From NCBI GenBank assembly GCA_001184205.1, contig LBMP01000005.1, positions 186,001 to 250,000 on the forward strand: DNA of 64,000 nucleotides, written 5' to 3'. This stretch comes from Desulfocarbo indianensis. GTDB taxonomy: Bacteria; Desulfobacterota; Desulfarculia; Desulfarculales; Desulfarculaceae. The stretch's first letter is position 1; every line of letters starts with the position of its first letter. Shown here in pieces: positions 1-37,372 of this stretch. A model generated the notes under the pieces. It was given only the letters and a program-made list of their open reading frames with translations, ran no database searches and was not told where the DNA came from. Both the position numbers and the translations under genes were made by a program.

Positions 1-977
1 CGCATGGCCCGGTTGACCGGATTCTGGCGCACCGCCTCCACCAGCTCCCGCTTGCCCAGGATGATGCCGGCCTGGGGGCCTCCCATGAGCTTGTCGCCGC
101 TGAAGGTGACCAAATCCGTGCCGGCGGCCACGGCCTCCTGCACCGTGGGCTCCTTGGCCAGGCCGTACTGGGAGAAATCCACCAGGGTGCCCGAGCCCAG
201 GTCTTCCATGACCGGCAAATGATAGCGGTCGGCCAGTTGGCGCAGTTCGGGCAGGGTCACCTCGGTATGGAAACCCACCACCGCGAAATTGGAGGTGTGC
301 ACTTTGAGCAGCAAGGCGGTTTGCGAGGTGATGGCCTCCTCGTAATCGTGCAGGTGGGTCTTGTTGGTGGTGCCCACTTCTTTCAGGATGGCCCCGGAAC
401 GCGCCATGACGTCGGGTATGCGGAATGACCCGCCTATCTCCACCAATTGCCCCCGGCTCACGATCACCTCGCGGCCCTGGGCCGCGGTTTGCAGGCAGAG
501 AAACACCGCGGCCGCGTTGTTGTTCACCACGATGGCCGCCTCGGCGCCGGTGAGATCGGCCAGGAGCTGGGCCGCGTGCACGTAGCGCGAGCCCCGGCGG
601 CCCTCCTCCAGGTCGTATTCCAGATTGGTATAGGTGCGGTTGAGGCTCAGCAGGCGCTCCAAGGCGTTTTCCGCCAAAAGGGAGCGGCCCAGGTTGGTAT
701 GCACCACCACCCCGGTGGCGTTGACCACGCCCCGCAGGGAAGGCCGGGCCAATTCCCGCGCCAGCCGGGCCGCCTGGGTCGCCACGGCCGCCAAGGCCAG
801 CCGGCTCTCGTCCACCGCCTCGCCGGCCAGAATGGCCTCCCGCAGGTCGTCCAGGCCGCGGCGCACGGCCTGCTTGACGATGCCGCGCGGCAGTTCCTCT
901 TCCAGGGAGACCAGTTCCGGGCGGGCCAGGAGCTGGTCCACCTTGGGTAAGCGCGCCAATAGCTTTTGATCGGGCAT
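1..977 (-). CDS. selA: L-seryl-tRNA(Sec) selenium transferase (SelA), 3' end cut by window
   Basis: PLP enzyme that converts Ser-tRNA(Sec) to Sec-tRNA(Sec) with selenophosphate, in the cytoplasm. The reverse strand reads open from the left edge and contains SelA signatures: an N-terminal helical region, the stretch VVNNNAAAVFL, the motif EVGTTNKTH, and the PLP-lysine block FSGDKLMGGPQAG followed by NPVNRAMR. The C-terminal part lies outside the window. ATG codons occur at 986 and 977. I chose 977 because AGGA sits 8 bases upstream; the difference is three residues. selB, selD and tRNA-Sec are not in view. The gene matters here because two reading frames in this window contain in-frame UGA codons at Cys positions (28046-28048 and 41754-41756). 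Confidence 0.93.
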   Translation of the reverse strand, partial: MPDQKLLARLPKVDQLLARPELVSLEEELPRGIVKQAVRRGLDDLREAILAGEAVDESRLALAAVATQAARLARELARPSLRGVVNATGVVVHTNLGRSLLAENALERLLSLNRTYTNLEYDLEEGRRGSRYVHAAQLLADLTGAEAAIVVNNNAAAVFLCLQTAAQGREVIVSRGQLVEIGGSFRIPDVMARSGAILKEVGTTNKTHLHDYEEAITSQTALLLKVHTSNFAVVGFHTEVTLPELRQLADRYHLPVMEDLGSGTLVDFSQYGLAKEPTVQEAVAAGTDLVTFSGDKLMGGPQAGIILGKRELVEAVRQNPVNRAM

Positions 978-19657: not shown

Positions 19658-21541
19658 TCAGTAAATCGCGTCGTATTTACAGTTCTCTATGCAGGTCTTG
19701 CACTTGATGCATTTTTCCAGATCGATGTGGGCCGGCTTTTTCTTTTCCCAGGTGATGGCCTCCACCGGGCAGTTCTTGAAGCAAAGTCCGCACATCTTGC
19801 ACTTTTCCTCATCCACCTTGAACTTGACCAGGGCCACGCAGGAGCGGGCCCGGCATTTCTTTTCGAAGATGTGCTCCTCGTACTCGTGGCGGAAATAGCG
19901 CAGGGTGCTGAGCACCGGGTTGGGGGCGGTCTGGCCCAGGCCGCACAGGGAGGACTGGCTGATCATGGCGGCCAGTTCCTCCAGGGTGTCCAGATCTCCC
20001 GCCTCGCCCTGGCCCCGGGTGATCTTTTCCACGATCTGCAGCATGCGGCGGGTGCCCTCCCGGCAGGGGGTGCATTTGCCGCAGGATTCATCCTGGATGA
20101 AATCCAGGAAATAGCGGGCCATGTCCACCATGCAGGTGGAATCGTCCATCACGATCATGCCGCCGGAGCCCACGATGGCGCCGGCCTTGATGATGGCCTC
20201 GTAATCGCAGGGCAGGTCCAGGTGCTCCTCCGGCACGCAGCCGCCGGAAGGCCCGCCCAGCTGCACCGCCTTGAACTTGCGGTGTTTCTTGGGCAAGCCC
20301 CCGCCGATGTCATAGATGATGGTGCGCAGGGAGGTGCCCATGGGCACCTCCACCAGGCCGATGTTGTTCACGTGGCCGGTGAGGGCGAAGACCTTGGTTC
20401 CCTTGCTGGTCTCGGTGCCCATGGAGGCGTACCACCGGCCGCCCTTCAGGATGATCTGGGGCACGTTGGCCCAGGTCTCCACGTTGTTCAGCACGGTGGG
20501 CCGGTTCCACAAGCCGGCTTGGGCCGGAAACGGCGGCCGGGGCCGGGGCATGCCCCGCTTGCCCTCGATGGAGCGCATGAGCGCGGTTTCCTCGCCGCAG
20601 ACAAAAGCGCCCGCGCCCTGATAAATGGAAAGCTCGAAGGAGAACCCGGTGTTCAGTATGTTCTCGCCCAAGAGCCCGTGCTCGTTGGCCTGGTCGATGG
20701 CCTTTTGCAGCCGGTGCACGGCCAGGGGATATTCGGCCCGGCAATACACGTAGCCCCGGTGAGCGCCGATGGCCTTGGCCGCGATGATCATGCCCTCCAC
20801 CACCGAGTGGGGGTCGGCCTCCAGGATGGAGCGGTCCATGAAGGCTCCGGGGTCGCCCTCGTCGGCGTTGCACAGGACATATTTGATCTCGCCCGCGGCC
20901 TTGGCGCAGAACTCCCACTTCAGGCCGGTGGGAAAGCCGGCGCCGCCGCGCCCGCGCAGGCCGGAGGCCTTCACCTGGCCGATGATGTCCTCGGGAGTCA
21001 TCTCGGTGAGCGCCTTGGCCATGGCCCGGTACCCGTCGCGGCCTATGTATTCGTCGATGCTCTCGGCGTCCAACAGGCCCCGGTTCCGGAGCGCCACCAG
21101 CTTCTGATGGGCGAAAAAGGGGATTTCGTGCATCAGGGGGATGCGCTCTTTGCTGGTGGGGTCCTTGAAGAGCAGCCGCTCCACCGCCTGGCCGCCCTTG
21201 AGGTGGCTCTCGATGAGTTCGGGGATGTCCCGGCTTTCCAGGTTCACGTAAAAAGTGCCCTCCGGATAGACCACCATCACCGGGCCCATGGCGCAAAAAC
21301 CGTTGCAGCCGGTTTCGATCACCTTGACCTCTTCGCTCAGCCCCTGGGCCGCCAGCTCGTTGATGAGGGTCTCCTTGACATTCTTGCTGCCCGCGGCGTG
21401 ACACCCGGTTCCGCCGCAGATCAGAAGGTGCCGGCGGGCCTTATGGGAGCCCGGCTCCGGCACCTCGCCGAGCCGCAGGGCTATGCCCTGGCGGTGCTGA
21501 TCCCGCAGGGCGGACAGTTCGTCCAGCTGAATCTTGGGCAT
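19658..21541 (-). CDS. nuoF: NuoF/HndC-like NADH-binding flavoprotein with extra Fe-S domains
   Basis: 627 aa. Order: N-terminal thioredoxin-like [2Fe-2S] domain (Cys 42, 47, 79, 83 in CGGTGC and TGCNGFC), NADH/FMN domain (GLRGRGGAGFPTGLKW; ADEGDPGAFMDR), SLBB region, [4Fe-4S] site (ESCGKCTPCREGT) and a C-terminal 2x[4Fe-4S] ferredoxin (CKMCGLCFKNCP, CIKCKTCIENC). This is the architecture of HndC and HydB in bifurcating hydrogenases or formate dehydrogenases, larger than the Nuo complex subunit. It would oxidise or reduce NAD(P)H with FMN. The NuoE-like partner is upstream; no HydA, NuoG or FdhA is adjacent, so the third partner is unknown. Confidence 0.92.
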   Translation of the reverse strand: MPKIQLDELSALRDQHRQGIALRLGEVPEPGSHKARRHLLICGGTGCHAAGSKNVKETLINELAAQGLSEEVKVIETGCNGFCAMGPVMVVYPEGTFYVNLESRDIPELIESHLKGGQAVERLLFKDPTSKERIPLMHEIPFFAHQKLVALRNRGLLDAESIDEYIGRDGYRAMAKALTEMTPEDIIGQVKASGLRGRGGAGFPTGLKWEFCAKAAGEIKYVLCNADEGDPGAFMDRSILEADPHSVVEGMIIAAKAIGAHRGYVYCRAEYPLAVHRLQKAIDQANEHGLLGENILNTGFSFELSIYQGAGAFVCGEETALMRSIEGKRGMPRPRPPFPAQAGLWNRPTVLNNVETWANVPQIILKGGRWYASMGTETSKGTKVFALTGHVNNIGLVEVPMGTSLRTIIYDIGGGLPKKHRKFKAVQLGGPSGGCVPEEHLDLPCDYEAIIKAGAIVGSGGMIVMDDSTCMVDMARYFLDFIQDESCGKCTPCREGTRRMLQIVEKITRGQGEAGDLDTLEELAAMISQSSLCGLGQTAPNPVLSTLRYFRHEYEEHIFEKKCRARSCVALVKFKVDEEKCKMCGLCFKNCPVEAITWEKKKPAHIDLEKCIKCKTCIENCKYDAIY

Positions 21542-21623: not shown

Positions 21624-22130
21624 TTATTTGTACTGCTCCACCAGATTCACCACCTGGTCGGCCATGACCTTGCGGTGGGTGTCCTGATTCACCACCACCA
21701 CCGGAGCCACGCCGCAGGCCCCCAGGCAGCGCACCTGCTCCAGGGTGAAGCGCCGGTCATCGGTCATGCTGTCCACCGGCACGCCCAGATGCCTTTCCAG
21801 GCGCTCCAGGGCCTCCTTGCCGCCCCGCACGTAGCAGGCGGTGCCCATGCACACCCGGATCACGTGCCTGCCCTTGGGTTTCATGGAAAAAAACGAATAA
21901 AAAGTGGTGACCCCGAACACCTCGTGACCCGGCACTCCCAGGCCCTCGGCTATGCGGTTTTGAATGGCCTCCGGCAGGTAGCCCACCACCTCCTGCACCT
22001 TCTGCAAAACCGGTATCAAGGCCCCGGGGCGGCCCCGGTGGGCTGCGCATATTTGGTCAACTTTTTCGAGCATTTCAGGAGTTATGCCCTCAGGCATGCT
22101 CACTGCTTCCGCTGACTGTACCCGGCTCAT
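21624..22130 (-). CDS. nuoE: NuoE/HndA-like [2Fe-2S] subunit
   Basis: 168 aa thioredoxin-fold electron-transfer subunit. Helical N-terminus with GALIPVLQKVQEVVGYLP, then VFGVTTFYSFFSMKPKG and the [2Fe-2S] ligands in CMGTACYVRGG and RCLGACG. It is 82 bases upstream of the NuoF-like gene on the same strand and forms the NADH-oxidising module with it. An AATTGTGCAATT palindrome lies at 22178-22189 in its upstream region. It may serve an NAD-linked complex with HdrA/MvhD or a hydrogenase encoded elsewhere; this is inference. Confidence 0.92.
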   Translation of the reverse strand: MSRVQSAEAVSMPEGITPEMLEKVDQICAAHRGRPGALIPVLQKVQEVVGYLPEAIQNRIAEGLGVPGHEVFGVTTFYSFFSMKPKGRHVIRVCMGTACYVRGGKEALERLERHLGVPVDSMTDDRRFTLEQVRCLGACGVAPVVVVNQDTHRKVMADQVVNLVEQYK

Positions 22131-26037: not shown

Positions 26038-26964
26038 TTAGTCCACCTTGGGCCGGGGCAAGAGGCCCGCCCCCTCGATGATCTCCTTAGCACGGTGCTC
26101 CCATTCAATGGCCATGACGTGCACCCCGGCCACGCCTTCCATCTCCTTGAGCTGATGGATGCTCTCGATGGCGATCTTGATGCCCTCCTCGGCCGCGTTT
26201 TTCTTGCCCGCGTCGGTGAGGCGCTTGACGATCTCCTCGGGCACGTCCATGCCGGGCACGAACTTGGCCATGTACTTGGCCATACCCACGGACTTCATGG
26301 GAGTCACGCCCCCCAGGATGTAGCATTTCTCATGCAGGCCCAGATCCACCACCCGCTTCATGAACTCGCGGAACTTGTCCATGTTGTAGATGCACTGGGT
26401 CTGGATGAAATCGGTCCCGGCGGCCACCTTCTTGGCCAGGCGCATGGGGCGGAAGCTGAAGGGATCGCCAAAGGGATTGGAGGCGGCGCCGATGAATATC
26501 TCGGGCGCTCCGTCCAGCTCCTTGTCGTTCAGGAATTTCTTCTCGTCGCGCATCTTCTTGCAAAGGGCGATCCACTGCATGGAATCCAGGTCGAAGACGT
26601 TCTTGCCCTCCGGGTGGTCGCCGAAGCGCTGATGGTCGCCCGAAAGGCAAAGCACGTTCTTGATGCCCAGGGCGGTGGCCCCCAGGAGATCGCTTTGCAG
26701 GCCGATTCGGTTGCGGTCGCGCACGGTCATCTGGAAGTTGGGCTCCAGGCCCTCGTCCAGAAGAATCTTGCAGGCGGCCCAGGAAGACATGCGCACCACG
26801 GCGGTCTGGTTGTCGGTGATGTTGACCGACTCCACGATGCCCTTCAAATGGGCGGCCTTGTGGCGCACCTCTTCCACGTTGTTGCCACGGGGAGGACCCA
26901 GTTCGCCGGTGACGGCGAAATGGCCCGCTTCCAGCACTTTCTCCAGATTGCTGCCGGCTTTCAT
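26038..26964 (-). CDS. metF: 5,10-methylenetetrahydrofolate reductase
   Basis: 308 aa FAD-binding TIM-barrel enzyme reducing methylene-THF to methyl-THF. Family signatures: HFAVTGELGPPRG at the N-terminus (catalytic Glu), ESVNITDNQTAVVRMSS, NVLCLSGDH, AAGTDFIQTQCIYNMDKF and GVTPMKSVG. The ATG at 26964 overlaps the MetV stop by 4 bases; a much longer open frame (to 27420) runs through MetV in another frame and is spurious. With MetV, MvhD and HdrA upstream, it is the catalytic part of a MetVF-Hdr-type complex in the methyl branch of the Wood-Ljungdahl pathway, probably not an NADH-only MetF. Confidence 0.95.
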   Translation of the reverse strand: MKAGSNLEKVLEAGHFAVTGELGPPRGNNVEEVRHKAAHLKGIVESVNITDNQTAVVRMSSWAACKILLDEGLEPNFQMTVRDRNRIGLQSDLLGATALGIKNVLCLSGDHQRFGDHPEGKNVFDLDSMQWIALCKKMRDEKKFLNDKELDGAPEIFIGAASNPFGDPFSFRPMRLAKKVAAGTDFIQTQCIYNMDKFREFMKRVVDLGLHEKCYILGGVTPMKSVGMAKYMAKFVPGMDVPEEIVKRLTDAGKKNAAEEGIKIAIESIHQLKEMEGVAGVHVMAIEWEHRAKEIIEGAGLLPRPKVD

Positions 26965-27629
26965 TGCTTCAAGTCCTCCCTCACCCGCTTGCGGGGGCCG
27001 CCGTCGCGGGAGGTGAGCCAATTCTTGACGGGCCACACCTCGGCCAGCTCTTGCAGCCTGCCCATCTTTTCCATCTTCTCCACGATCAGATGCCACACGC
27101 AGTCCACGTTGGGATCGATCTCGCACTTGGCGTTGGCCGAGCCGCCGCAGGGCCCGTTCATGAGGCTCTTGGAGCAGCGGGCGATGGGACACAGCCCGCC
27201 GAAATGGTGCACCAGGCAGTTGCCGCAGGATTGGCAGCGCTCGACCCACACCCCGTGTTCCAAGGCGCCGCCGATGAAGGTGGTGTTGATGCCGGGGTAA
27301 ACCCGAATTTCCGGGAAACGCTCGGAGACGAATTGGGGGCCCACGCCGCAGGCAATGGAAACCACGGCGTCGTAATCCTCGATATCGTCCGCCAGTTCCT
27401 CGATGTACTCCGGATCGCACTGGCGCTCCAGGGTGCGCTCCCCGATTTCGGTTTGCCAGCCTTGTTTTTTAACGGCTATGCGCAAGGCGGTGGCCAGGAT
27501 GCCCACCTCCTTTTCGCCGCCCACGTTACAGACCGTCACGCAGCCGCGGCAGCCCAATACCAGGACCTTGCCCTTGTCCCTTATCATCTCCAGAATCTCT
27601 TCCAGAGGCTTGCTGTCCCCTACGATCAT
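26961..27629 (-). CDS. metV: MetV, zinc/Fe-S partner of MetF
   Basis: 222 aa from ATG 27629, which has GAGGTG 7 bases upstream (a GTG three codons earlier is also open). N-terminal VLGCRGCVTVCNVGGEKEV and central ERCQSCGNCLVHHFGGLCPIARCSK give about ten conserved Cys, as in the MetV subunit of acetogen methylene-THF reductases. The motif MNGPCGGS is typical of the C-terminal MTHFR-associated domain. It is coupled to metF by ATGA overlap and follows mvhD by 41 bases. Expected to pass electrons between HdrA/MvhD and MetF. Confidence 0.9.
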   Translation of the reverse strand: MIVGDSKPLEEILEMIRDKGKVLVLGCRGCVTVCNVGGEKEVGILATALRIAVKKQGWQTEIGERTLERQCDPEYIEELADDIEDYDAVVSIACGVGPQFVSERFPEIRVYPGINTTFIGGALEHGVWVERCQSCGNCLVHHFGGLCPIARCSKSLMNGPCGGSANAKCEIDPNVDCVWHLIVEKMEKMGRLQELAEVWPVKNWLTSRDGGPRKRVREDLKQ

Positions 27630-27670
27630 AGGAATCACCTCGCTCGTGAAGCCGCGCTAAACAATTCGCA

Positions 27671-28096
27671 CTATGCCGCCTTGGCCTTGGGCACCGGGCT
27701 GGGCCCCAGCCCGCGAATGGTCTCGGTGAATTCGCGGGCCACCTGGGCGAAACGCGGCCCTTCGGCCGACGACATATTGAACATCTCGATGCGCTCTGGC
27801 TCTATGCCCAAGGCCTCCAGCACCTTTTTGACGTACTCCACCTTGCGCCTGGCCTTCAAGTTGCCGGTCAGGAAATGGCAGTCGCCTTCCATGCAGCCGG
27901 CCACGTAAACGCCGTCGGCTCCGTCCTCGAAGGACCGCAACAGGTGCAGGATGTCCACCCGACCGGAGCAGGGAAGCTGGATCACCCTAACGTTGGTGGG
28001 GTACTGGAGTCTCATCGAACCTGCCAGGTCCGCTGCCGAATAGGCTCAGTATTGGCAGCAGAAAGCTACGATGGTCGGTTCAAAGCTATTGTTCAC
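27671..28096 (-). CDS. mvhD: MvhD-type electron-transfer subunit, selenoprotein with in-frame UGA (Sec17)
   Basis: 141 aa when read from GTG 28096 (GGGAGG 7 bases upstream) through an in-frame TGA at 28048-28046. The start of the protein then reads NNSFEPTIVAFCCQY-U-AYSAADLAGS, followed at the ATG 28015 by MRLQYPTNVRVIQLPCSGRVD, GADGVYVAGCMEGDCHF and the rest of a normal MvhD. In the family the UGA position is the second Cys of a CCxxC motif. Stopping at the UGA, or starting at 28015, removes the conserved N-terminal cluster site. A 7-bp stem with loop GGC at 28016-28032, 13-14 bases after the UGA, is a candidate bacterial SECIS. MvhD normally carries a [2Fe-2S] cluster linking HdrA to its electron donor. 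Known VhuD selenoproteins support the reading. Confidence 0.88.
28016..28032 (-). promoter_or_regulatory. Candidate SECIS hairpin in mvhD mRNA
   Basis: On the minus strand CGGACCU-GGC-AGGUUCG forms a 7-bp stem (one G-U pair) with a G-containing apical loop. It begins 13 bases after the UGA at 28048-28046, matching the geometry of bacterial SelB-binding elements. Folding energy was not computed. Confidence 0.6.
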
Positions 28097-28200: not shown

Positions 28201-31200
28201 TCACTTGGCAAACGCCGCCAATTCCTTGGCCAGGATTTGGGCGTCGGTGAAATGCTGCAGGGTGATGGCCTTGCCCGGACATTCGGCCGCGCAGGCCCCG
28301 CAGCCGTAGCAGGAGGCCACCTCGATGTAGGCGGCGCCGTCCTTGATGCGCGGCACGTTGTAGGGGCAGGTGCGCACGCAGGTGAGACAGACCGAGCACT
28401 TGGACGGGTCCACCACCGCCACCACCCCGCCCACGCGGATCTTTTCCTTGGCCAGCACGGTGAGCGCGCGGCCCACCGCCGCGTCGGCCTGGGCGATGGC
28501 CTCGTCCATGGGCTTGGGGAAGTGGGCCAGGCCGGCCAGGTAGAGACCCTCGCTGGCGAAGTCCACCGGCCGGAGCTTCATGTGGGCTTCCAGGAAGAAG
28601 CCCTCGGCGTTGAGCGGCGTCTTGAAAAGCTCGGCCAGCTCGGTCACCTGGTTGGGCGCGATGGCCGCGGCCAGCACCAGGCGGTCCACCTCGAAGCTCA
28701 CCGGACGGCCCAGCACATGGTCATGGGCGGTGACCAGGACCTTGTCGCCGCTGGCTTCCACCCGGGGCTTGTTGTCCAGGGTGTAGCGGAAGAAGAGCAC
28801 GCCCGCTTCGCGGGCCTTCTTGTACAGGTCCTCGCGCACGCCATAGGTGCGGATGTCGCGGTAGATGATGTAGACGTTGGCGTCGGGATTCTTTTCCTTT
28901 ACCTTGATGGCGCTTTCCACGCTGTGGGCGCAGCACAGCCGCGAACAGTAGGGCCGCTCCGGCTCCCGCGAGCCCACGCACTGGATGAAGGCCACCGCGC
29001 CCAGCTGCTTGGGCAGGTCGGCGTCGGCCTTCAACTGGCCGTCGAAGCCCAGGGCGGTGGTCACCGCCTGATGCTCGTTGTAGAGGTATTCGCCGGGCTG
29101 GGTCTCGTGGCCGCCGGTGGCCATCACCACCACGCCGAACTCGATGTTGGTGTCCTTGCCGGCATGGCTGGTGATGGTGCCGGTGAAGTTGCCCACGAAG
29201 CCCTTGGCCGCGCTGAGTTCGCTTTCCAGGTGCAGGGTGATGCCCCGGTGCTTCTCCGCCTTTTTGGTGAGCTGCTCCAGATAGGGCGACACCGCCTCGC
29301 CCTTCCAGGTGTTGAGCAGGTAATGGGCGTTGCCGCCCAGCCGGCCGGACTTTTCCACCAGGTGCACGGGATAGCCCGAATCGGCCAGGCGCAGGGCCGC
29401 ATTCATGCCGGCCACGCCGCCGCCCACCACCAGGGCGCTCTTGGTCAGCTCCAGATCCACCTGGTGCAGGGGCTCGATGAGGGCGGCCTTGGCCACGGCC
29501 ATGCGGACCAGGTCCTTGGCCTTGGCGGTGGCCTTTTCCGGCTCCTTCTGGTGCACCCAGGAATCCTGGTCGCGGATGTTGGCCATCTCGAAGAGGTATT
29601 TGTTGAGGCCGGCCTCGCGGATGGTCTCCTGGAACAGAGGCTCGTGGGTGCGCGGGCTGCAGGAGGCCACGATCACCCGGTTCAGGTCGTTCTCCTCGAT
29701 CTTTTCCTTGATCTTGTTCTGGGTGTCCTGGGAGCAGGTGAACAGGTTGTCGTCCACAAAGGCCACATAAGGCAGAGTGGCGGCGTATTCGCGCACCGCC
29801 GGCACGTCCACCACCCCGCCGATGTTGATGCCGCAGTTGCACACGAACACGCCGATGCGCGGGGTTTTGCCGCTCACGTCCTTTTCCACCGGATACTGCA
29901 CGGCCTTGGTCAGGGTGCCGCGGCTCTCGGCCAAATCCACGCTGGAGGCGCAGGCCGCGGCCGAGGCCTCCATAACCGCCTGGGGGATGTCCTTGGGCCC
30001 GGCGAAACAGCCGCAGGCGAACACGCCCGGCTTGGAGGTGCCCACCGGCGCGAAGGAGCTGGTCTCCGAGAAATTATAGCCGGTCAGCTCCACGCCCAGC
30101 CGCTTGGCCAGTTGCACGGCGTCCTTGCCGGTCTGCAGGCCCACCGAGAGCACCACCAGGTCGAAATCCTCGGAAAGCGGCTCGCCGCTCTCGGAAGCGT
30201 AGTTGATGCGCAGGTTGCCGCCCTCCACCGGGTCGATGGTGTGCACCCGGCTGCGGATGAAACGCACGCCGTGCTCGTTGCGGGCGCGGTCGTAGTATTT
30301 CTCGAAATCCTTGCCGTAGGTCCGCATGTCCATGAAGAAGATGGCGGTGTCCAGGGGCTCGTGGGAATGCTCCTTGGCGATGACCGCCTCCTTGATGGCG
30401 TACATGCAGCACACCGCCGAACAGTAACCGTTGTCGCAACGGTTGATGTCGCGGGAGCCCACGCATTGCAGCCAGGCCACCTTCTTGGGTTCGGCGCCGT
30501 CGCCGGGCCGCTGCAGATGGCCCTGATAGGGCCCGGAGGCGGAAAGCACCCGCTCGAACTCCATGGCGGTGAGCACGTTGGGATGCTGGGCATAGGCATA
30601 GGTGTCGTATTTGGAGGGGTCGAAGGCGTCGAAGCCCGGCGCCATGATGACGCTGCCCACCTTGAGGTCAAGGTCCATGGGCTTCTGGTCGTGGGCCGGG
30701 GCGTGGGCCTTGCACACCGCCACGCACTGGTAACACTCGCAGCACACCCCGCAGTTGAGGCAGCGCTCGCCCTCGGCGGCGGCCTGCTCCGGGGTGAGCC
30801 CCAGCTCGAATTCATTGAAATCCTTTTTGCGCTGGGAGGCCGAGCGCAGCTCCATGTGGGCCCTGGCCTTCTTGGCGACGTTCAAGGGAATGGGGTTCCA
30901 GTTCCCCTCCGCCGGCATCTTCAATTTTTCGCGGCCCGCCGCCAGGTCCTCGCCCTTGAACAGGCGCTCCATGCTGATGGCGGCCTCGCGCCCGGCGGCC
31001 ACCGCGCCGATGGCGATCCAGGGCCCGGTCACCGCGTCGCCGCCGGCGAACACGCCCTTCAGGCTGGTGGCCATGGTCACGGGGTCGGCCTGGATGAGCC
31101 CGCGGGGAGTCGTCTCCAGGCCCGATCCCTCCAGGAAGCCCAGTTCGGTGCGCTGGCCGATGGCGGTGATGATGAGATCGGCGGATAAATCCACCAGGGA

Positions 31201-32628
31201 ACAGGTCTCGTCGAACTCGGGCGCGAAGCGGCCCTCGCCGTTGAACACGCTGGTGCATTCCTTCAAGGCAAGCCCGGTGGCCCGGCCGCCCTGGGCCAGC
31301 ACCTGGCCCACGCCCTTGCGGTGCACAAAGGCCACGCCCTCGTCCAGGGCCTCCTGGATCTCCCAGGGGCTGGCCGGCTGCTCCTCGGCCGATTCCAGCA
31401 TGACCATGGTGACCTTTTCGGCGCCCTTGCGCAGCGCGGTGCGCGCCGCGTCGATGGCCACGTTGCCGCCGCCCACCACCACCACGTTCCGGCCCTGGGG
31501 CAGGTCCTCACCCAGGCTGGCCTTCTTGAGGTATTCCAGGGCGGGGATGATGTTGGCGGCGTCCTCGCCGGGCACGTTGAGCTTGAAGCTCTGGGGCGCG
31601 CCCACGCCCAGATACACCGCGTCGTAGTCCTTTTGCAACTGCTGGAAGGGCAGGTCCTTGCCGATGGGGGTGTTCAGCTTGATCTCCACCCCCATGGTCT
31701 TCAAGAGGTCGATTTCCTTTTGCAGGCCCGCCCTGGGCAGCCGGTATTCCGGCACTCCAACTGCCAAGGCGCCGCCCGCAACGGGCAGCGCCTCGAAAAT
31801 CACGCTCTTTATTCCGCGCCGAGCCAAATGGTAGGCGCAGGATAAGCCGCCTGGCCCGGAGCCTATGATGGCCACCTTTTCGGAACGTGGCTCCACCTCC
31901 GGCTGAACCACGTTTTCTATGCCGGCCTGGTCGGCCACGAAGCGTTTGATATCGCGGATGGCCACCGCCTCGTCCACCTCCAGGCGGCGACACTCGCTTT
32001 CGCAGGGATGGGGACAGATGCGGCCGATGGTGCCGGGCAGACAGAGGTCCTCCATGACGATGGAAAGCGATTCCAGATTCTTGCCCACCTTGGCCATCTG
32101 CACGTAGCCCTGCACGTTGAGATTGGCCGGGCAGGTGATCTTGCAGGGCGCGCGGTCCAGCTTGGTTATGGCGTAGGCGTTGGGATAGGCCTGGGCGTAG
32201 CGCTTGAAGGTGGCCTTGCAGGTGTTGAGGCCCTGGTTGAACTCGCTGGGCACCTCCACCGGGCAGGCGTCGATACAGTCGCCGCAGGCGGTGCAGGCCT
32301 CCATGTCGATGTAGCGCGGTTTCTGGTGCACCTTCACCGAGAAGTTGCCCGGCTCGCCCTCGATGCCCTGCACCTCCGCGTTGGTGATGATCTCGATGTT
32401 GAGGTGGCGCCCGCACTCCACCAACTTGGGGGAGATGATGCACATGGCGCAATCGTTGGTGGGAAAGGTTTTATCGAGCTGGGCCATGCGCCCGCCGATG
32501 GCGGAAGTCTTTTCCACAAGGTAGACGTAATAGCCCGCGTTCGCCAGATCCAAGGAAGCCTGCACGCCGGCGATGCCAGCGCCTACCACCATTACCGCTC
32601 CGACCTTGCCGCTCTTTGCTTCTGCCAT
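28201..32628 (-). CDS. hdrA: Giant HdrA: HdrA-GltD-HdrA fusion flavoprotein
   Basis: 1475 aa from ATG 32628 (AAGGTGAGG upstream). Order: first HdrA FAD domain (GAGIAG, residues 16-21) with a ferredoxin site (CTACGDCIDACP, 112-123); GltD/NfnB-like NAD(P)H-FAD module, about 155-585 (CPANLNVQGYV, GSGPGG 256-261, GGGNVA 386-391); Cys cluster CLNCGVCCECYQC (623-635); the remainder of the first HdrA (QCVGSRD 721-727, YCSAVCC 735-741); a second complete HdrA from about 925 (VCNCGINIGG, GGGVAGMNA 1069-1077, QCVGSRE 1216-1222, YCSRLCC); and two C-terminal [4Fe-4S] sites (1411-1421, 1440-1450). Expected to be the flavin electron-splitting or branching hub with MvhD and MetVF. No hdrB or hdrC is adjacent. 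Confidence 0.9.
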   Translation of the reverse strand: MAEAKSGKVGAVMVVGAGIAGVQASLDLANAGYYVYLVEKTSAIGGRMAQLDKTFPTNDCAMCIISPKLVECGRHLNIEIITNAEVQGIEGEPGNFSVKVHQKPRYIDMEACTACGDCIDACPVEVPSEFNQGLNTCKATFKRYAQAYPNAYAITKLDRAPCKITCPANLNVQGYVQMAKVGKNLESLSIVMEDLCLPGTIGRICPHPCESECRRLEVDEAVAIRDIKRFVADQAGIENVVQPEVEPRSEKVAIIGSGPGGLSCAYHLARRGIKSVIFEALPVAGGALAVGVPEYRLPRAGLQKEIDLLKTMGVEIKLNTPIGKDLPFQQLQKDYDAVYLGVGAPQSFKLNVPGEDAANIIPALEYLKKASLGEDLPQGRNVVVVGGGNVAIDAARTALRKGAEKVTMVMLESAEEQPASPWEIQEALDEGVAFVHRKGVGQVLAQGGRATGLALKECTSVFNGEGRFAPEFDETCSLVDLSADLIITAIGQRTELGFLEGSGLETTPRGLIQADPVTMATSLKGVFAGGDAVTGPWIAIGAVAAGREAAISMERLFKGEDLAAGREKLKMPAEGNWNPIPLNVAKKARAHMELRSASQRKKDFNEFELGLTPEQAAAEGERCLNCGVCCECYQCVAVCKAHAPAHDQKPMDLDLKVGSVIMAPGFDAFDPSKYDTYAYAQHPNVLTAMEFERVLSASGPYQGHLQRPGDGAEPKKVAWLQCVGSRDINRCDNGYCSAVCCMYAIKEAVIAKEHSHEPLDTAIFFMDMRTYGKDFEKYYDRARNEHGVRFIRSRVHTIDPVEGGNLRINYASESGEPLSEDFDLVVLSVGLQTGKDAVQLAKRLGVELTGYNFSETSSFAPVGTSKPGVFACGCFAGPKDIPQAVMEASAAACASSVDLAESRGTLTKAVQYPVEKDVSGKTPRIGVFVCNCGINIGGVVDVPAVREYAATLPYVAFVDDNLFTCSQDTQNKIKEKIEENDLNRVIVASCSPRTHEPLFQETIREAGLNKYLFEMANIRDQDSWVHQKEPEKATAKAKDLVRMAVAKAALIEPLHQVDLELTKSALVVGGGVAGMNAALRLADSGYPVHLVEKSGRLGGNAHYLLNTWKGEAVSPYLEQLTKKAEKHRGITLHLESELSAAKGFVGNFTGTITSHAGKDTNIEFGVVVMATGGHETQPGEYLYNEHQAVTTALGFDGQLKADADLPKQLGAVAFIQCVGSREPERPYCSRLCCAHSVESAIKVKEKNPDANVYIIYRDIRTYGVREDLYKKAREAGVLFFRYTLDNKPRVEASGDKVLVTAHDHVLGRPVSFEVDRLVLAAAIAPNQVTELAELFKTPLNAEGFFLEAHMKLRPVDFASEGLYLAGLAHFPKPMDEAIAQADAAVGRALTVLAKEKIRVGGVVAVVDPSKCSVCLTCVRTCPYNVPRIKDGAAYIEVASCYGCGACAAECPGKAITLQHFTDAQILAKELAAFAK

Positions 32629-32792
32629 TTGCCTCACCTTCGCAGGATTAGCGAGGCCAGGACGGCCTCTCAAATGAACAGTTCGCTCCGCGCAACTATG
32701 CCGCGGCGCCCAGCGCCAAATGTACCGGAATTCCTACTGTACCGCTATTGAATAAGATCATTATCTCCCCGGTTCTAATAGGCACCATATAC

Positions 32793-32854: not shown

Positions 32855-34633
32855 TTAGAAGATGCCCTTGATCTTGCCGCTCTTGGTGTCCACGTCCACG
32901 CGCCGGTAGGCGGGGTTGGAGCCGCTGCCGGGCATCAGGCTGATGGTGCCGGCCACCGGTACCACGAAGCCCGCGCCGCCGTAGGTCAGCACGTCGCGCA
33001 CGTAAAGCTTCCAGCCCTTGGGCACGCCCTTCATGTTGGGGTTGTCCGACAGGGACAGGTGGGTCTTCACCATGCAGGTGCCCAGCTGGCTCAGCTCGGG
33101 GTCCTTTTCGATGCGGGCGGCCTTGGCGGCGGCCTCGGCGGAGTATTCCACGCCGTCGGCGCCGTAGACTTCCTTGGCGATCTTATCAATGCGCTGGCGC
33201 AGAGGCATCTTCAGCTCGTAGAGCAGCTTGAAGTTGTTCTTCTCCTCGCAAGCCTCCTTGACCGCCTCGGCGAACTCGATGGCGCCTTCGCCGCCCAGCT
33301 CCCAATGGCGGCTCACCGCCACGCGGGCGCCGGCCTTTTCAGCCAGCTTGCGCACCGCGTTGATCTCGTTCTTGGTGTCGGTGTAGAAGGCGTTGACGCA
33401 CACCACCGGGTTGATGCCGGCTTTCTTCACGGTCTCGATGTGATGTACCAGGTTCTTGCAGCCGTCTTCCACCCAGCCCACGTTCTCCTTGCCGTACTCG
33501 GGCGGCATGGGCTTGCCGGGCACCGGGATGGGCGCGCCGCCGTGGCACTTGAGGGCGCGGATGGTGGCCACCACCACGGCGCAATGGGGCTTCAGGCCGC
33601 TGAAGCGGCACTTCAGGTTCCAGAATTTCTCGAAGCCGATGTCCGCGCCGAAGCCGGATTCGGTCACGTGGTAGTCGGAGAGCTTCAAAGCCACGCGGTC
33701 GGCCAGGATGGAGCTCTGGCCGATGGCGATGTTGGCGAAAGGACCGGCGTGCACGAACACCGGCTGGCCTTCCAGGGTCTGCAGCAGGTTGGGGTTGAGA
33801 GCCTCGGCCATCCAGGCGGTCATGGCGCCGGCCACCTCGAGATCCTCGGTGGTCACGGGGGTGCCCTTCTTATCGTAGGCCACCACGATCTTGCCCATGC
33901 GCTCCCGCATGTCGGCCAGGTCCTTGGCCACGGCCAGGATGGCCATGACCTCGGAGCTCACCGCGATGCCGAACTTGGAGTGCATCATGTAGCCGTTGGT
34001 CTTGTTGCCCATGTCCAGGCCCACGATGATGTGGCGCAGGGCCTGGGCGCAGAAGTCGATGATCCAGCCCATCTCGATGTTGGTGGGGTCGATGTCCAGG
34101 CGGCGCATCTTGGAGAGCCGCTTGAGCTGCTCGTCATTGTAGTTGCGCTCGTGCTGCAGGCGGCTGGTCAGGGCCACCATGGCCAGGTTGTGGGCGTTCA
34201 TGATGGCGTTGATGTCGCCGGTGAGGCCCAGGCTGAAGGGGGTCAAGGGGATGCACTGGGCCAAGCCGCCGCCGGCCGCCGAGCCCTTGATGTTCATGGT
34301 GGGGCCGCCAGAGGGCTGCCGGATGGCCGCGGTGACGTTCATGCCCAGCTTGCCCATGCCCTCGACCAGGCCCATGGTGCTGGTGGACTTGCCCTCGCCC
34401 AGGGGCGTGGGGGTGATGGCGGTCACGTCGATGTACTTGCCATCCTTCTTGTTCTCCAGCCGAGCCAAGACCTTCTTGAAGTCCACCTTGGCCACGTAAT
34501 GGCCGTGGGGCAGAAGCTCCTCGTCGGTGAGGCCGAGTTGCTCGGCGATCTCCTTGATGGGCTTCATGTACTTCTCGGCCGCTTGGGCGATTTTCCAATC
34601 TGGGTTTTTAGTCGGGTCCGGCAGCTTGGGCAT
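32855..34633 (-). CDS. fhs: Formate-tetrahydrofolate ligase
   Basis: 592 aa enzyme making 10-formyl-THF from formate, THF and ATP, a key step of the Wood-Ljungdahl methyl branch. P-loop [46 protein letters not shown], and the C-terminal [16 protein letters not shown] are diagnostic. TTAAGGAGG lies before the ATG. It is slightly longer than the usual 555-560 aa through an N-terminal extension. It is upstream of and codirectional with the hdrA-mvhD-metV-metF operon but separated by a terminator; nfnAB is divergent. folD/fchA are not in view. Confidence 0.97.
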
Positions 34634-35099: not shown

Positions 35100-35945
35100 A
35101 TGTTCAAAATCCTCACCAAGCAAGAACTCGCCCAGGGAACCGTGGTGGCCAACGAGATCCACGCCCCCAGGATAGCCGGCAAGGCCAGGCCGGGTCAGTT
35201 CATCATACTCAGAGTCAACGAAAACGGTGAACGCATCCCCCTGACCATGGCCGACAGCAACCCGGAGCGGGGAACCATCACCATCATCTACCAGGTGGTG
35301 GGCAAGTCCACCGCGCTCCTCAAATCCCTGAACGTGGGCGATACCATTTTGGATATCGCCGGACCCCTGGGGCAGCCCACCCCCATAGAGAAAAAGGGCA
35401 CCATCATCTGCGTGGGCGGCGGCACCGGCGTGGCCGTGCTGCACCCCATCACCCGCGGCTTCAAGCAGGCCGGCAACAAGGTCATCGCCATCATCGGAGC
35501 CCGCAACAAGGACCTCCTGATTATGGAAGACAAGATGAAGGCGGCCTCCCACGAGCTGTACGTATGCACCGACGACGGCTCCTACGGCCATCACGGCTTC
35601 GTCACCGACGTCCTGAAAGCGCAGTTGGAAAAGCTGGGTTCCGAGGTCAAGGAAGCGGTGTGCATCGGTCCGGTGCCCATGATGAAGTTCTGCGCCAAGG
35701 TCACCAAGGAGTTCGGAATCCCCACCATGGTCAGCCTGAACGCCATCATGGTGGACGGCACCGGCATGTGCGGCTGTTGCCGCGTATCGGTGGGCGGCGA
35801 AACCAAATTCGCCTGCGTGGACGGCCCCGAGTTCGACGGCCACAAGGTGGACTTCGAGGAGTTGGGCCAGCGCCTGACCGCCTATCAGCCCCAAGAGCGC
35901 CAGGCCATGGACCTCTACCAGCGCAAGTGCTCCTGCTCCTCTTAA
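35100..35945 (+). CDS. nfnA: NfnA: NADH-dependent ferredoxin:NADP oxidoreductase, small subunit
   Basis: 281 aa ferredoxin-NADP reductase-like protein. FAD-binding beta barrel with PGQFIILRVNENGERIPLT, NAD domain with ICVGGGTGVAVLHPI, and the C-terminal [2Fe-2S] site in MCGCCRVSVGG and KFACVDGPEFDGH, as in NfnA and dihydroorotate dehydrogenase PyrK relatives. GGAGG lies before the ATG. It is 23 bases upstream of nfnB; together they would bifurcate electrons from NADPH to NAD and ferredoxin or run in reverse. This is consistent with NADPH supply to the adjacent C1 pathway. Confidence 0.9.
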   Translation: MFKILTKQELAQGTVVANEIHAPRIAGKARPGQFIILRVNENGERIPLTMADSNPERGTITIIYQVVGKSTALLKSLNVGDTILDIAGPLGQPTPIEKKGTIICVGGGTGVAVLHPITRGFKQAGNKVIAIIGARNKDLLIMEDKMKAASHELYVCTDDGSYGHHGFVTDVLKAQLEKLGSEVKEAVCIGPVPMMKFCAKVTKEFGIPTMVSLNAIMVDGTGMCGCCRVSVGGETKFACVDGPEFDGHKVDFEELGQRLTAYQPQERQAMDLYQRKCSCSS

Positions 35946-35968
35946 GACACGAAAGGGATTGCTTCATC

Positions 35969-37372
35969 ATGTCCGATAAAAAAGAGAAAACTCCGCGCCA
36001 GAAAATGCCCGAGCAGGCCCCGGACGTGCGCCGCCGCAATTTCGAGGAAGTGCCCCACGGCTACACCGCCGAACAGGCCCAATTGGAAGCCAGCCGCTGC
36101 CTGCAATGCAAAAAGCCCTCCTGCGTGGAAGGCTGTCCGGTGAACGTGGGCATCCCGGCCTTTATCGGCCGCATCCAGGAAGGCGACTTCGTGGGCGCCA
36201 TCCTGAAGCTCTGGGAGAAGAACTCCTTCCCGGCGGTGTGCGGCCGGGTGTGCCCCCAGGAAAGCCAGTGCGAAGGCCGCTGTATCGTGGGCAAAAAGGA
36301 CGAGCCCGTGGCCATCGGCAACCTGGAGCGCTTCGTGGCCGACTGGGCCCGCTCCCAAAGCGACATCCCCATGCCCCCCATCGCCGAGAAAACCGGCAAA
36401 AAGGTGGCCGTGGTGGGTTCCGGCCCCGGCGGCATCACCGTGGCCGGCGATTTGATCCGCAAGGGCCACGAGGTGACCATGTTCGAGGCCTTCCACAAGC
36501 CCGGCGGCGTGTTGGTCTACGGCATCCCCGAGTTCCGCCTGCCCAAGGAGATCGTGGCCCACGAGGTCAATTTCCTGGAGAGGCTGGGCGTCAAGGTGGA
36601 GTGCAACATAGTGGTGGGCCGCGTGGTAACCGTGGATGAACTCCTGAACGAGGAAGGCTACGACGCGGTTTATCTGGGCGTGGGAGCCGGCCTGCCCACC
36701 TTCCTGGGCGTGCCCGGCGAAAACCTCATGGGCATCTACAGCGCCAACGAGTACCTCACCCGCTCCAACCTCATGAAGGCCTATCTCTTCCCCGAATACG
36801 ACACTCCCCTGGTCAAGGGCAAGAACGTGGTGGTCTTCGGCGGCGGCAACGTGGCCATGGACGCCCTGCGCACCTCCATGCGCATGGGGGCCGAAAGCGT
36901 GAAATGCATCTATCGCCGCTCCCATGACGAGCTGCCCGCCCGCGCGGCGGAAATTCACCACGCCGAGGAGGAGCAGATCGAGTTCTTCTTCCTGCACAGC
37001 CCCTTGCGCTTCCTGGGCGACGACAAGGGCTGGCTCAAGGGCGTGGAGCTGCAGGAGATGAAGCTGGGCGAGCCCGACGCCAGCGGCCGCCGCCGGCCCG
37101 AGCCCATTGCCGGCAGCACCAAGACCGTGGAATGCGACATGGCCATCATCGCGGTGGGCTCCGGCGCCAACCCCCTGGTCACCGCCACCACCCCGGGGCT
37201 GGAAGTGAACAAGTGGGGCTATATCGTGGCCGACGAGGCCGGCAAGACCAAGAAACCCGGCGTGTGGGCCGGCGGCGACATCGTCACCGGCGCCGCCACC
37301 GTGATCCTGGCCGCCGGCGCCGGCCGCAAGGCGGCCGACTCCATACACGAGTACTTGACCTGGGGCTGGTAG
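35969..37372 (+). CDS. nfnB: NfnB: GltD-like large subunit of the NADPH-bifurcating complex
   Basis: 467 aa, start ATG 35969. The open frame extends 135 codons upstream into nfnA, but that part is an out-of-frame shadow. N-terminal double [4Fe-4S] region (CLQCKKPSCVEGCPVNVGIP; CGRVCPQESQCEGRC), FAD motif GSGPGG, NADPH motif GGGNVAMDALR and C-terminal GGDIVTGAATVILA. The fold is shared with GltD (NADPH:glutamate synthase beta), but pairing with NfnA identifies it as NfnB. The same module is built into the giant HdrA of this window (residues 155-585). Confidence 0.92.
   Translation: MSDKKEKTPRQKMPEQAPDVRRRNFEEVPHGYTAEQAQLEASRCLQCKKPSCVEGCPVNVGIPAFIGRIQEGDFVGAILKLWEKNSFPAVCGRVCPQESQCEGRCIVGKKDEPVAIGNLERFVADWARSQSDIPMPPIAEKTGKKVAVVGSGPGGITVAGDLIRKGHEVTMFEAFHKPGGVLVYGIPEFRLPKEIVAHEVNFLERLGVKVECNIVVGRVVTVDELLNEEGYDAVYLGVGAGLPTFLGVPGENLMGIYSANEYLTRSNLMKAYLFPEYDTPLVKGKNVVVFGGGNVAMDALRTSMRMGAESVKCIYRRSHDELPARAAEIHHAEEEQIEFFFLHSPLRFLGDDKGWLKGVELQEMKLGEPDASGRRRPEPIAGSTKTVECDMAIIAVGSGANPLVTATTPGLEVNKWGYIVADEAGKTKKPGVWAGGDIVTGAATVILAAGAGRKAADSIHEYLTWGW

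Follow-up and report, generated by a model that had tools for sequence, protein, structure and literature searches.

A predicted selenocysteine-containing MvhD in an HdrA–MetVF operon of Desulfocarbo indianensis

Gene content of the locus

The window analysed here, a 64,000-nt stretch of the Desulfocarbo indianensis genome, carries hdrA, mvhD, metV and metF next to one another and all on the minus strand (Table 1), which is the gene order by which an Hdr-type methylene-tetrahydrofolate (methylene-THF) reductase is recognized. The same order is conserved across more than 30 family codes. The HdrA protein contains an inserted GltD-like FAD/NAD(P)H domain at about residues 170-575. No NCBIfam profile matched MetV, which is named from its context and from its similarity across loci, in most of which MetF linkage is found downstream of MvhD; the PDB matches obtained for MetV were designed coiled-coil-like proteins only and were judged spurious. 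None of the genome's CCG-domain matches falls in the operon, which leaves it without the HdrB and HdrC of the Moorella cluster, and 32 such matches lie elsewhere in the genome. A plasmid search gave no match.

Table 1 Genes and features of the mvhD locus in window coordinates
Feature	Position	Strand	Remarks
selA	1..956 (G000:C279:185592-186956 = window -408..956)	-	3′ end outside window; TIGR00474
metF	26038..26964	-	Start ATG 26964, sharing ATGA with the metV stop; PRK08645 3.5e-62, TIGR00676 3.7e-20
metV	26961..27638	-	Start GTG 27638, more likely ATG 27629; named by position and linkage
mvhD, 141 aa, predicted Sec at codon 17	27671..28096	-	Start GTG 28096; readthrough translation and profile matches
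Predicted SECIS hairpin CGGACCU-GGC-AGGUUCG	28016..28032	-	Starts 13 nt past the UGA; 3-nt loop, G first; codons 22-26 frozen
In-frame UGA (predicted Sec codon) in CCQYU	28046..28048	-	TGA also in 16/16 same-family orthologues
hdrA, Moorella/HdrL type	28201..32673	-	1490-aa ORF; translation likely begins at ATG 32628
fhs, formate-tetrahydrofolate ligase	32855..34633	-	Upstream, same direction; NF010032 1121 bits, above cut-off

Elsewhere in the window, two adjacent plus-strand genes (35100-35945 and 35942-37372) match two NfnAB-like subunits (PRK06222 and gltA profiles) and point away from the fhs–hdrA operon. On the minus strand, 19658-21541 encodes a NuoF-type protein extended by 2Fe-2S and ferredoxin domains, beside which lies a small gene (21624-22130, minus strand) for a putative protein of NuoE-like appearance.

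An in-frame UGA in mvhD

Without readthrough, an ORF finder reported only 27671-28015 (114 aa) at the position of mvhD. Translation through the single TGA, which forms codon 17 (28048-28046, minus strand), yielded the 141-aa product VNNSFEPTIVAFCCQYUAYSAADLAGSMRL... and bore out the proposal of the initial annotation that this frame encodes a complete MvhD/VhuD-type protein in which CCQYU is followed by AYSAADLAG. The Pfam FlpD profile (PF02662) matches both sides of the TGA and spans it in a full-length match above its cut-off (171.8 bits against 22.3, positions 1-123). Because the NCBIfam VhuD profile (NF045873; 3.7e-48, residues 6-135) fell short of its cut-off of 215 with 163 bits, the predicted product is VhuD-like and distinct from methanogen VhuD itself. 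The TGA stands for the last Cys of a CCxxC motif (C13-C14-x-x-U17); it had been described as replacing the second Cys of this motif, and its place at a Cys of the motif holds, but strictly that Cys is the third. The GTG start proposed earlier, at 28096, is the only one possible, with an in-frame TGA two codons upstream and a purine-rich AGGGAGGG on its 5′ side.

The genome encodes the machinery for selenocysteine (Sec), namely tRNA-Sec (75 bits), SelB (393 bits), SelD (376 bits) and SelA (TIGR00474, 605.6 bits, over cut-off), and selA does lie about 27 kb from mvhD as first reported, the gene being cut by the window edge. The selD gene (G000:C1:157070-157993, minus strand) itself contains an in-frame TGA and probably encodes a selenoprotein too. 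Co-occurrence with SelB was dropped as a decisive test: SelB matches were found in 370 of 395 genomes, and the search returned none in five genomes with a TGA gene (G029, G058, G061, G179 and G253), four of them 67-85% complete and G058 98%. G058 thus has a TGA-bearing MvhD but no SelB match at the search threshold; its selB may fall in a gap between contigs or have diverged.

Conservation of the TGA codon

Besides 16 orthologues from the same family, the homologue sample comprised 80 regions from the phylum and the genome itself and another 80 loci taken from named GTDB genomes, with some genomes in both. All 16 same-family orthologues, 84-90% identical, retain the TGA, and a correction to TGC, which the initial annotation had considered, finds no basis in these relatives. 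Across about 160 loci, codon 17 is TGA, TGC or TGT and in no case TAA or TAG. Among all MvhD homologues scanned, each of the 101 interruptions at codon 17 is a TGA, with no TAA or TAG; this and the TGA shared by the 16 close orthologues put the codon beyond chance. Further TGA codons in the scanned homologues lie at codon 68 (five) and near the C-terminus (one). In the alignment the UGA site is occupied by Cys in homologues, and C14, C17, C43, C68 and C73 are invariant in 182 of 182 rows when Sec is counted as Cys. The first 16 codons are likewise conserved at the protein level among orthologues.

A SECIS signature downstream of the UGA

The hairpin that follows the UGA has seven pairs, one of them G-U, and its loop begins 20 nt after the UGA. 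The features ascribed to it in the initial annotation (a 7-pair stem, a G in the loop and the 13-nt distance) are present and its codons are frozen, but its stability is not unusual: folding of the window hairpin gave an ordinary energy (z = -0.41). A synonymous-shuffle test separated Sec rows (mean z -1.05) from Cys rows (-0.50) only modestly, and stability was therefore dropped as proof of a SECIS element; support for the hairpin comes from codon-level conservation, not from folding energy.

For the codon comparison, 85 non-redundant, MetV-linked TGA genes were set against 46 Cys genes that encode a nearly identical peptide. All 85 TGA genes read GAC CTG GCA at codons 23-25, and 82 of them have GGT next, at codon 26; the Cys genes use GCA in 6 and GGT in 9 of 46. 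The core GACCTGGCAGGT is found in 82 of 85 TGA genes and in 0 of 46 Cys genes (Fisher p 3e-32, uncorrected for kinship), the exact core being absent from three TGA genes. Synonymous entropy over codons 22-26 is 0-0.25 bits in the TGA genes and 0.86-1.91 bits in the Cys genes. Kinship does not account for the frozen codons, judging from two comparisons: in pairs at 65-75% MetVF identity, 0.14 of the five codons differ between Sec genes as against 2.47 between Cys genes, and on a MetV+MetF tree with 9 Sec/Cys changes the core tracks Sec in ~6/6 independent pairs (p ~0.03). The outer hairpin pair in the 85 TGA genes is C-G in 49, G-C in 14 and C.C in 18; since most of the G-C pairs belong to a single clade, they were not counted as many covariation events. 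At two distant Sec MvhD-MetVF loci (L104 and L112) the hairpin sequence, GCTGACCTGGCAGGCTCAGC, departs from the frozen core, and reading by hand suggests that a stem is kept there in a shifted register with a bulge. As judged from these codon comparisons, the pattern at the hairpin is a SECIS signature, which makes selenocysteine close to certain.

Decoding of the UGA

Together, the reading frame, the conserved TGA, the frozen SECIS codons, the Sec machinery and the operon context with its own conservation argue that MvhD in the window almost certainly contains selenocysteine. Were the TGA a real stop, translation would have to restart at ATG 28015 to give a 114-aa protein without the CCxxC segment. 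This ATG is in frame, has CAGGT just on its 5′ side and matches the ORF-finder call; a restart is nevertheless highly improbable: orthologues preserve the amino acids of the first 16 codons, two of the five Cys that never vary would be lost with the segment, and only TGA genes have the hairpin codons frozen. The draft state of the genome (333 contigs) could suggest a sequencing error or a decayed gene, yet the same TGA in 16 genomes of the family and at many wider loci refutes this in practice, the remaining frame shows no break and is conserved, and the chance of either is negligible. The open frame by itself would also fit decoding of the TGA as another amino acid, either Trp by reassignment of the code or Cys by suppression. 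This is very improbable, given that Cys occupies the site in other family members, the genome has a full Sec machinery and table 11 gives open frames for those flanking operon genes that were scanned.

Proposed role of the selenoprotein

In the reading that we favour, and consider highly probable, SelB and tRNA-Sec would decode the UGA as selenocysteine at the SECIS hairpin 13 nt downstream, and the product would be a Sec-form MvhD, which as a small subunit with a [2Fe-2S] cluster would dock on HdrA and transfer electrons. HdrA, with its NAD(P)H-binding GltD-like domain, is followed in the operon by MetV and MetF as in the Moorella Hdr-type methylene-THF reductase. By analogy, MvhD would move electrons to or from the HdrA flavin, perhaps with NAD(P)H input through the GltD domain, and MetVF would interconvert methylene-THF and methyl-THF in the Wood-Ljungdahl pathway. 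In sulfate reducers this pathway can run oxidatively, so that electrons could flow either way. Actual Sec insertion, ligation of the cluster by selenium, complex formation and the direction of electron flow are inferences.

Within MvhD, Sec would substitute for one of the invariant Cys residues, either at the cluster or beside it. Solved relatives exist for MvhD and HdrA, and in the PDB alignment the MvhD chain 9sfi_K carries 'X' (non-standard residues) at the positions of both codon 17 and codon 68, which are most simply taken as Sec. These residues, the five invariant Cys and the occurrence of Sec at codons 17 and 68 make it fair to place Sec at or beside the [2Fe-2S] cluster. A Se-ligated cluster on the electron route with HdrA and MetF, as the initial annotation had envisaged, is plausible; its position 'between HdrA and MetF', however, may be the wrong side for MvhD, because in methanogen complexes the [2Fe-2S] cluster of MvhD feeds the bifurcating FAD of HdrA (PMC12350162) and so lies on the electron-input side of the flavin. 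The operon differs from that of Moorella in having no HdrBC genes, which counts against the proposed electron route to MetVF.

It is conceivable, though we rate it as the weaker case, that Sec MvhD works mainly with another partner, such as a membrane or quinone link as proposed for Sporomusa or a soluble HdrBC encoded elsewhere, and not in a tight HdrA–MetVF unit. The lack of hdrBC from the operon and the CCG-domain matches elsewhere in the genome would fit such a partner, as would the finding that S. ovata MvhD is 75% membrane-bound and that HdrBCA-MvhD and MetVF did not co-purify (PMC9430772). Against it stand the gene order kept in the >30 family codes and pull-downs from S. ovata, in which MvhD bound HdrA, HdrB and MetF, although no stable complex was purified (PMC9430772). 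The electron partner of the methylene-THF reduction step is an open question even in acetogens.

Distribution of Sec and Cys forms

The Sec form in a MetVF-linked HdrA operon had been singled out as what is special to this locus; it proved to be the majority form, with TGA in 95 of 140 MetV-linked copies and TGC/TGT in 45. MetV-linked copies are spread over 33 family codes, 24 with Sec and 12 with Cys. Outside the deltaproteobacterial groups the best matches mostly carry Cys (Bacillota 5/5, Chloroflexota 3/3), including the copy of Moorella mulderi (L209, TGT). The Myxococcota in this last tally are MAGs named 'Deltaproteobacteria bacterium' and are not to be taken literally.

Two Cys MvhD modules lie in the D. 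indianensis genome itself. One (C268:75391-75792; L245, G000:C268:69500-81500) has MetV at 57% and MetF at 65%, in an hdrA-mvhD-metV-metF cluster with another MetF-like gene lying upstream of hdrA; the other (C279:294556-294975; L246, G000:C279:289000-302500), likewise next to hdrA, has MetV at 46% and a partial MetF match at 35%. These MvhD-MetV(F) modules are possible selenium-free counterparts. Two further MvhD paralogues of this genome bear a TGA (L162, G000:C222:180000-188500; L163, G000:C111:706500-715000), one at codon 68 and one at CxxU, and both adjoin HdrA. Three MetV-linked MvhD genes (L185, L191 and L200), which group next to Sec17 clades, carry their TGA at codon 68 (VAGU-xEGEC) and a Cys codon at position 17, which suggests a shift of Sec from one invariant Cys to another while the operon type stayed the same. 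Tentatively, and with less confidence than we would need to favour it, the Desulfobacterota might hold a standard selenium-dependent isoenzyme of Hdr-type methylene-THF reductase, for which the Cys modules of the same genome would serve as a selenium-free back-up (compare Vhu/Vhc of methanogens) and in which Sec could move from codon 17 to codon 68 with the module unchanged.

Sec and Cys have replaced each other 8-9 times in a single conserved operon, and this offers natural pairs for testing the role of selenium at the cluster. For finding such genes, which ORF finders shorten at the TGA, the 12-nt hairpin core, frozen as it is, can serve in practice as a marker.

Comparison with known systems

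Sec-containing FrhD/MvhD is an established bacterial family, reported in 2006 with 19 cases, three Sec-to-Cys and three Cys-to-Sec events (PMC1794560), and with a CxxU motif and up to two Sec (PMC13188914). Syntrophobacter fumaroxidans has eight FrhD/MvhD selenoprotein copies (PMC1794560), and Desulfobacterium autotrophicum has four Sec MvhD (mvhD1,2,3,5) beside HdrA/HdrL, HdrL being the name used in that organism for Hdr/glutamate-synthase fusions (PMC2702500). The initial annotation was thus right that Sec MvhD relatives occur in Deltaproteobacteria, where they have long been known (PMC1794560, PMC2702500). They belong to the same family as the window MvhD, come from its wider lineage and adjoin HdrA/HdrL; in these papers, as read here, the links given are to FrhA/FrhG, GlpC, formate dehydrogenase or Dsr, and one to MetVF is unstated. 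Among the open-access papers searched, none places a Sec MvhD in an Hdr-type methylene-THF reductase or with MetVF. The protein type itself is known, and what seems new is its wide, conserved tie to MetVF, apparently undescribed.

Hdr-type methylene-THF reductases have been described from Moorella, Sporomusa, marine Chloroflexi and others (PMC5736913, PMC7325909). The HdrCBA-MvhD-MetVF of Moorella thermoacetica and Sporomusa ovata shares its module order with the window operon, and the GltD insert gives M. thermoacetica HdrA the same layout as the window HdrA (PMC9430772). The two differ in that the window operon has a predicted Sec MvhD and no hdrBC, whereas the Moorella cluster has hdrBC and the M. 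mulderi copy has Cys.

The VhuD-type MvhD of methanogens belongs to the same family as the window MvhD, has Sec at CxxU and is a partner of HdrA. The methanogen form sits with VhuG/A/U or formate dehydrogenase and with HdrBC, whereas the window form sits with MetV and MetF in an operon that, unlike the methanogen complexes, has no hydrogenase or HdrBC genes. The predicted SECIS element of the window is of the bacterial type, within the coding region, and in this it differs from the methanogen system.
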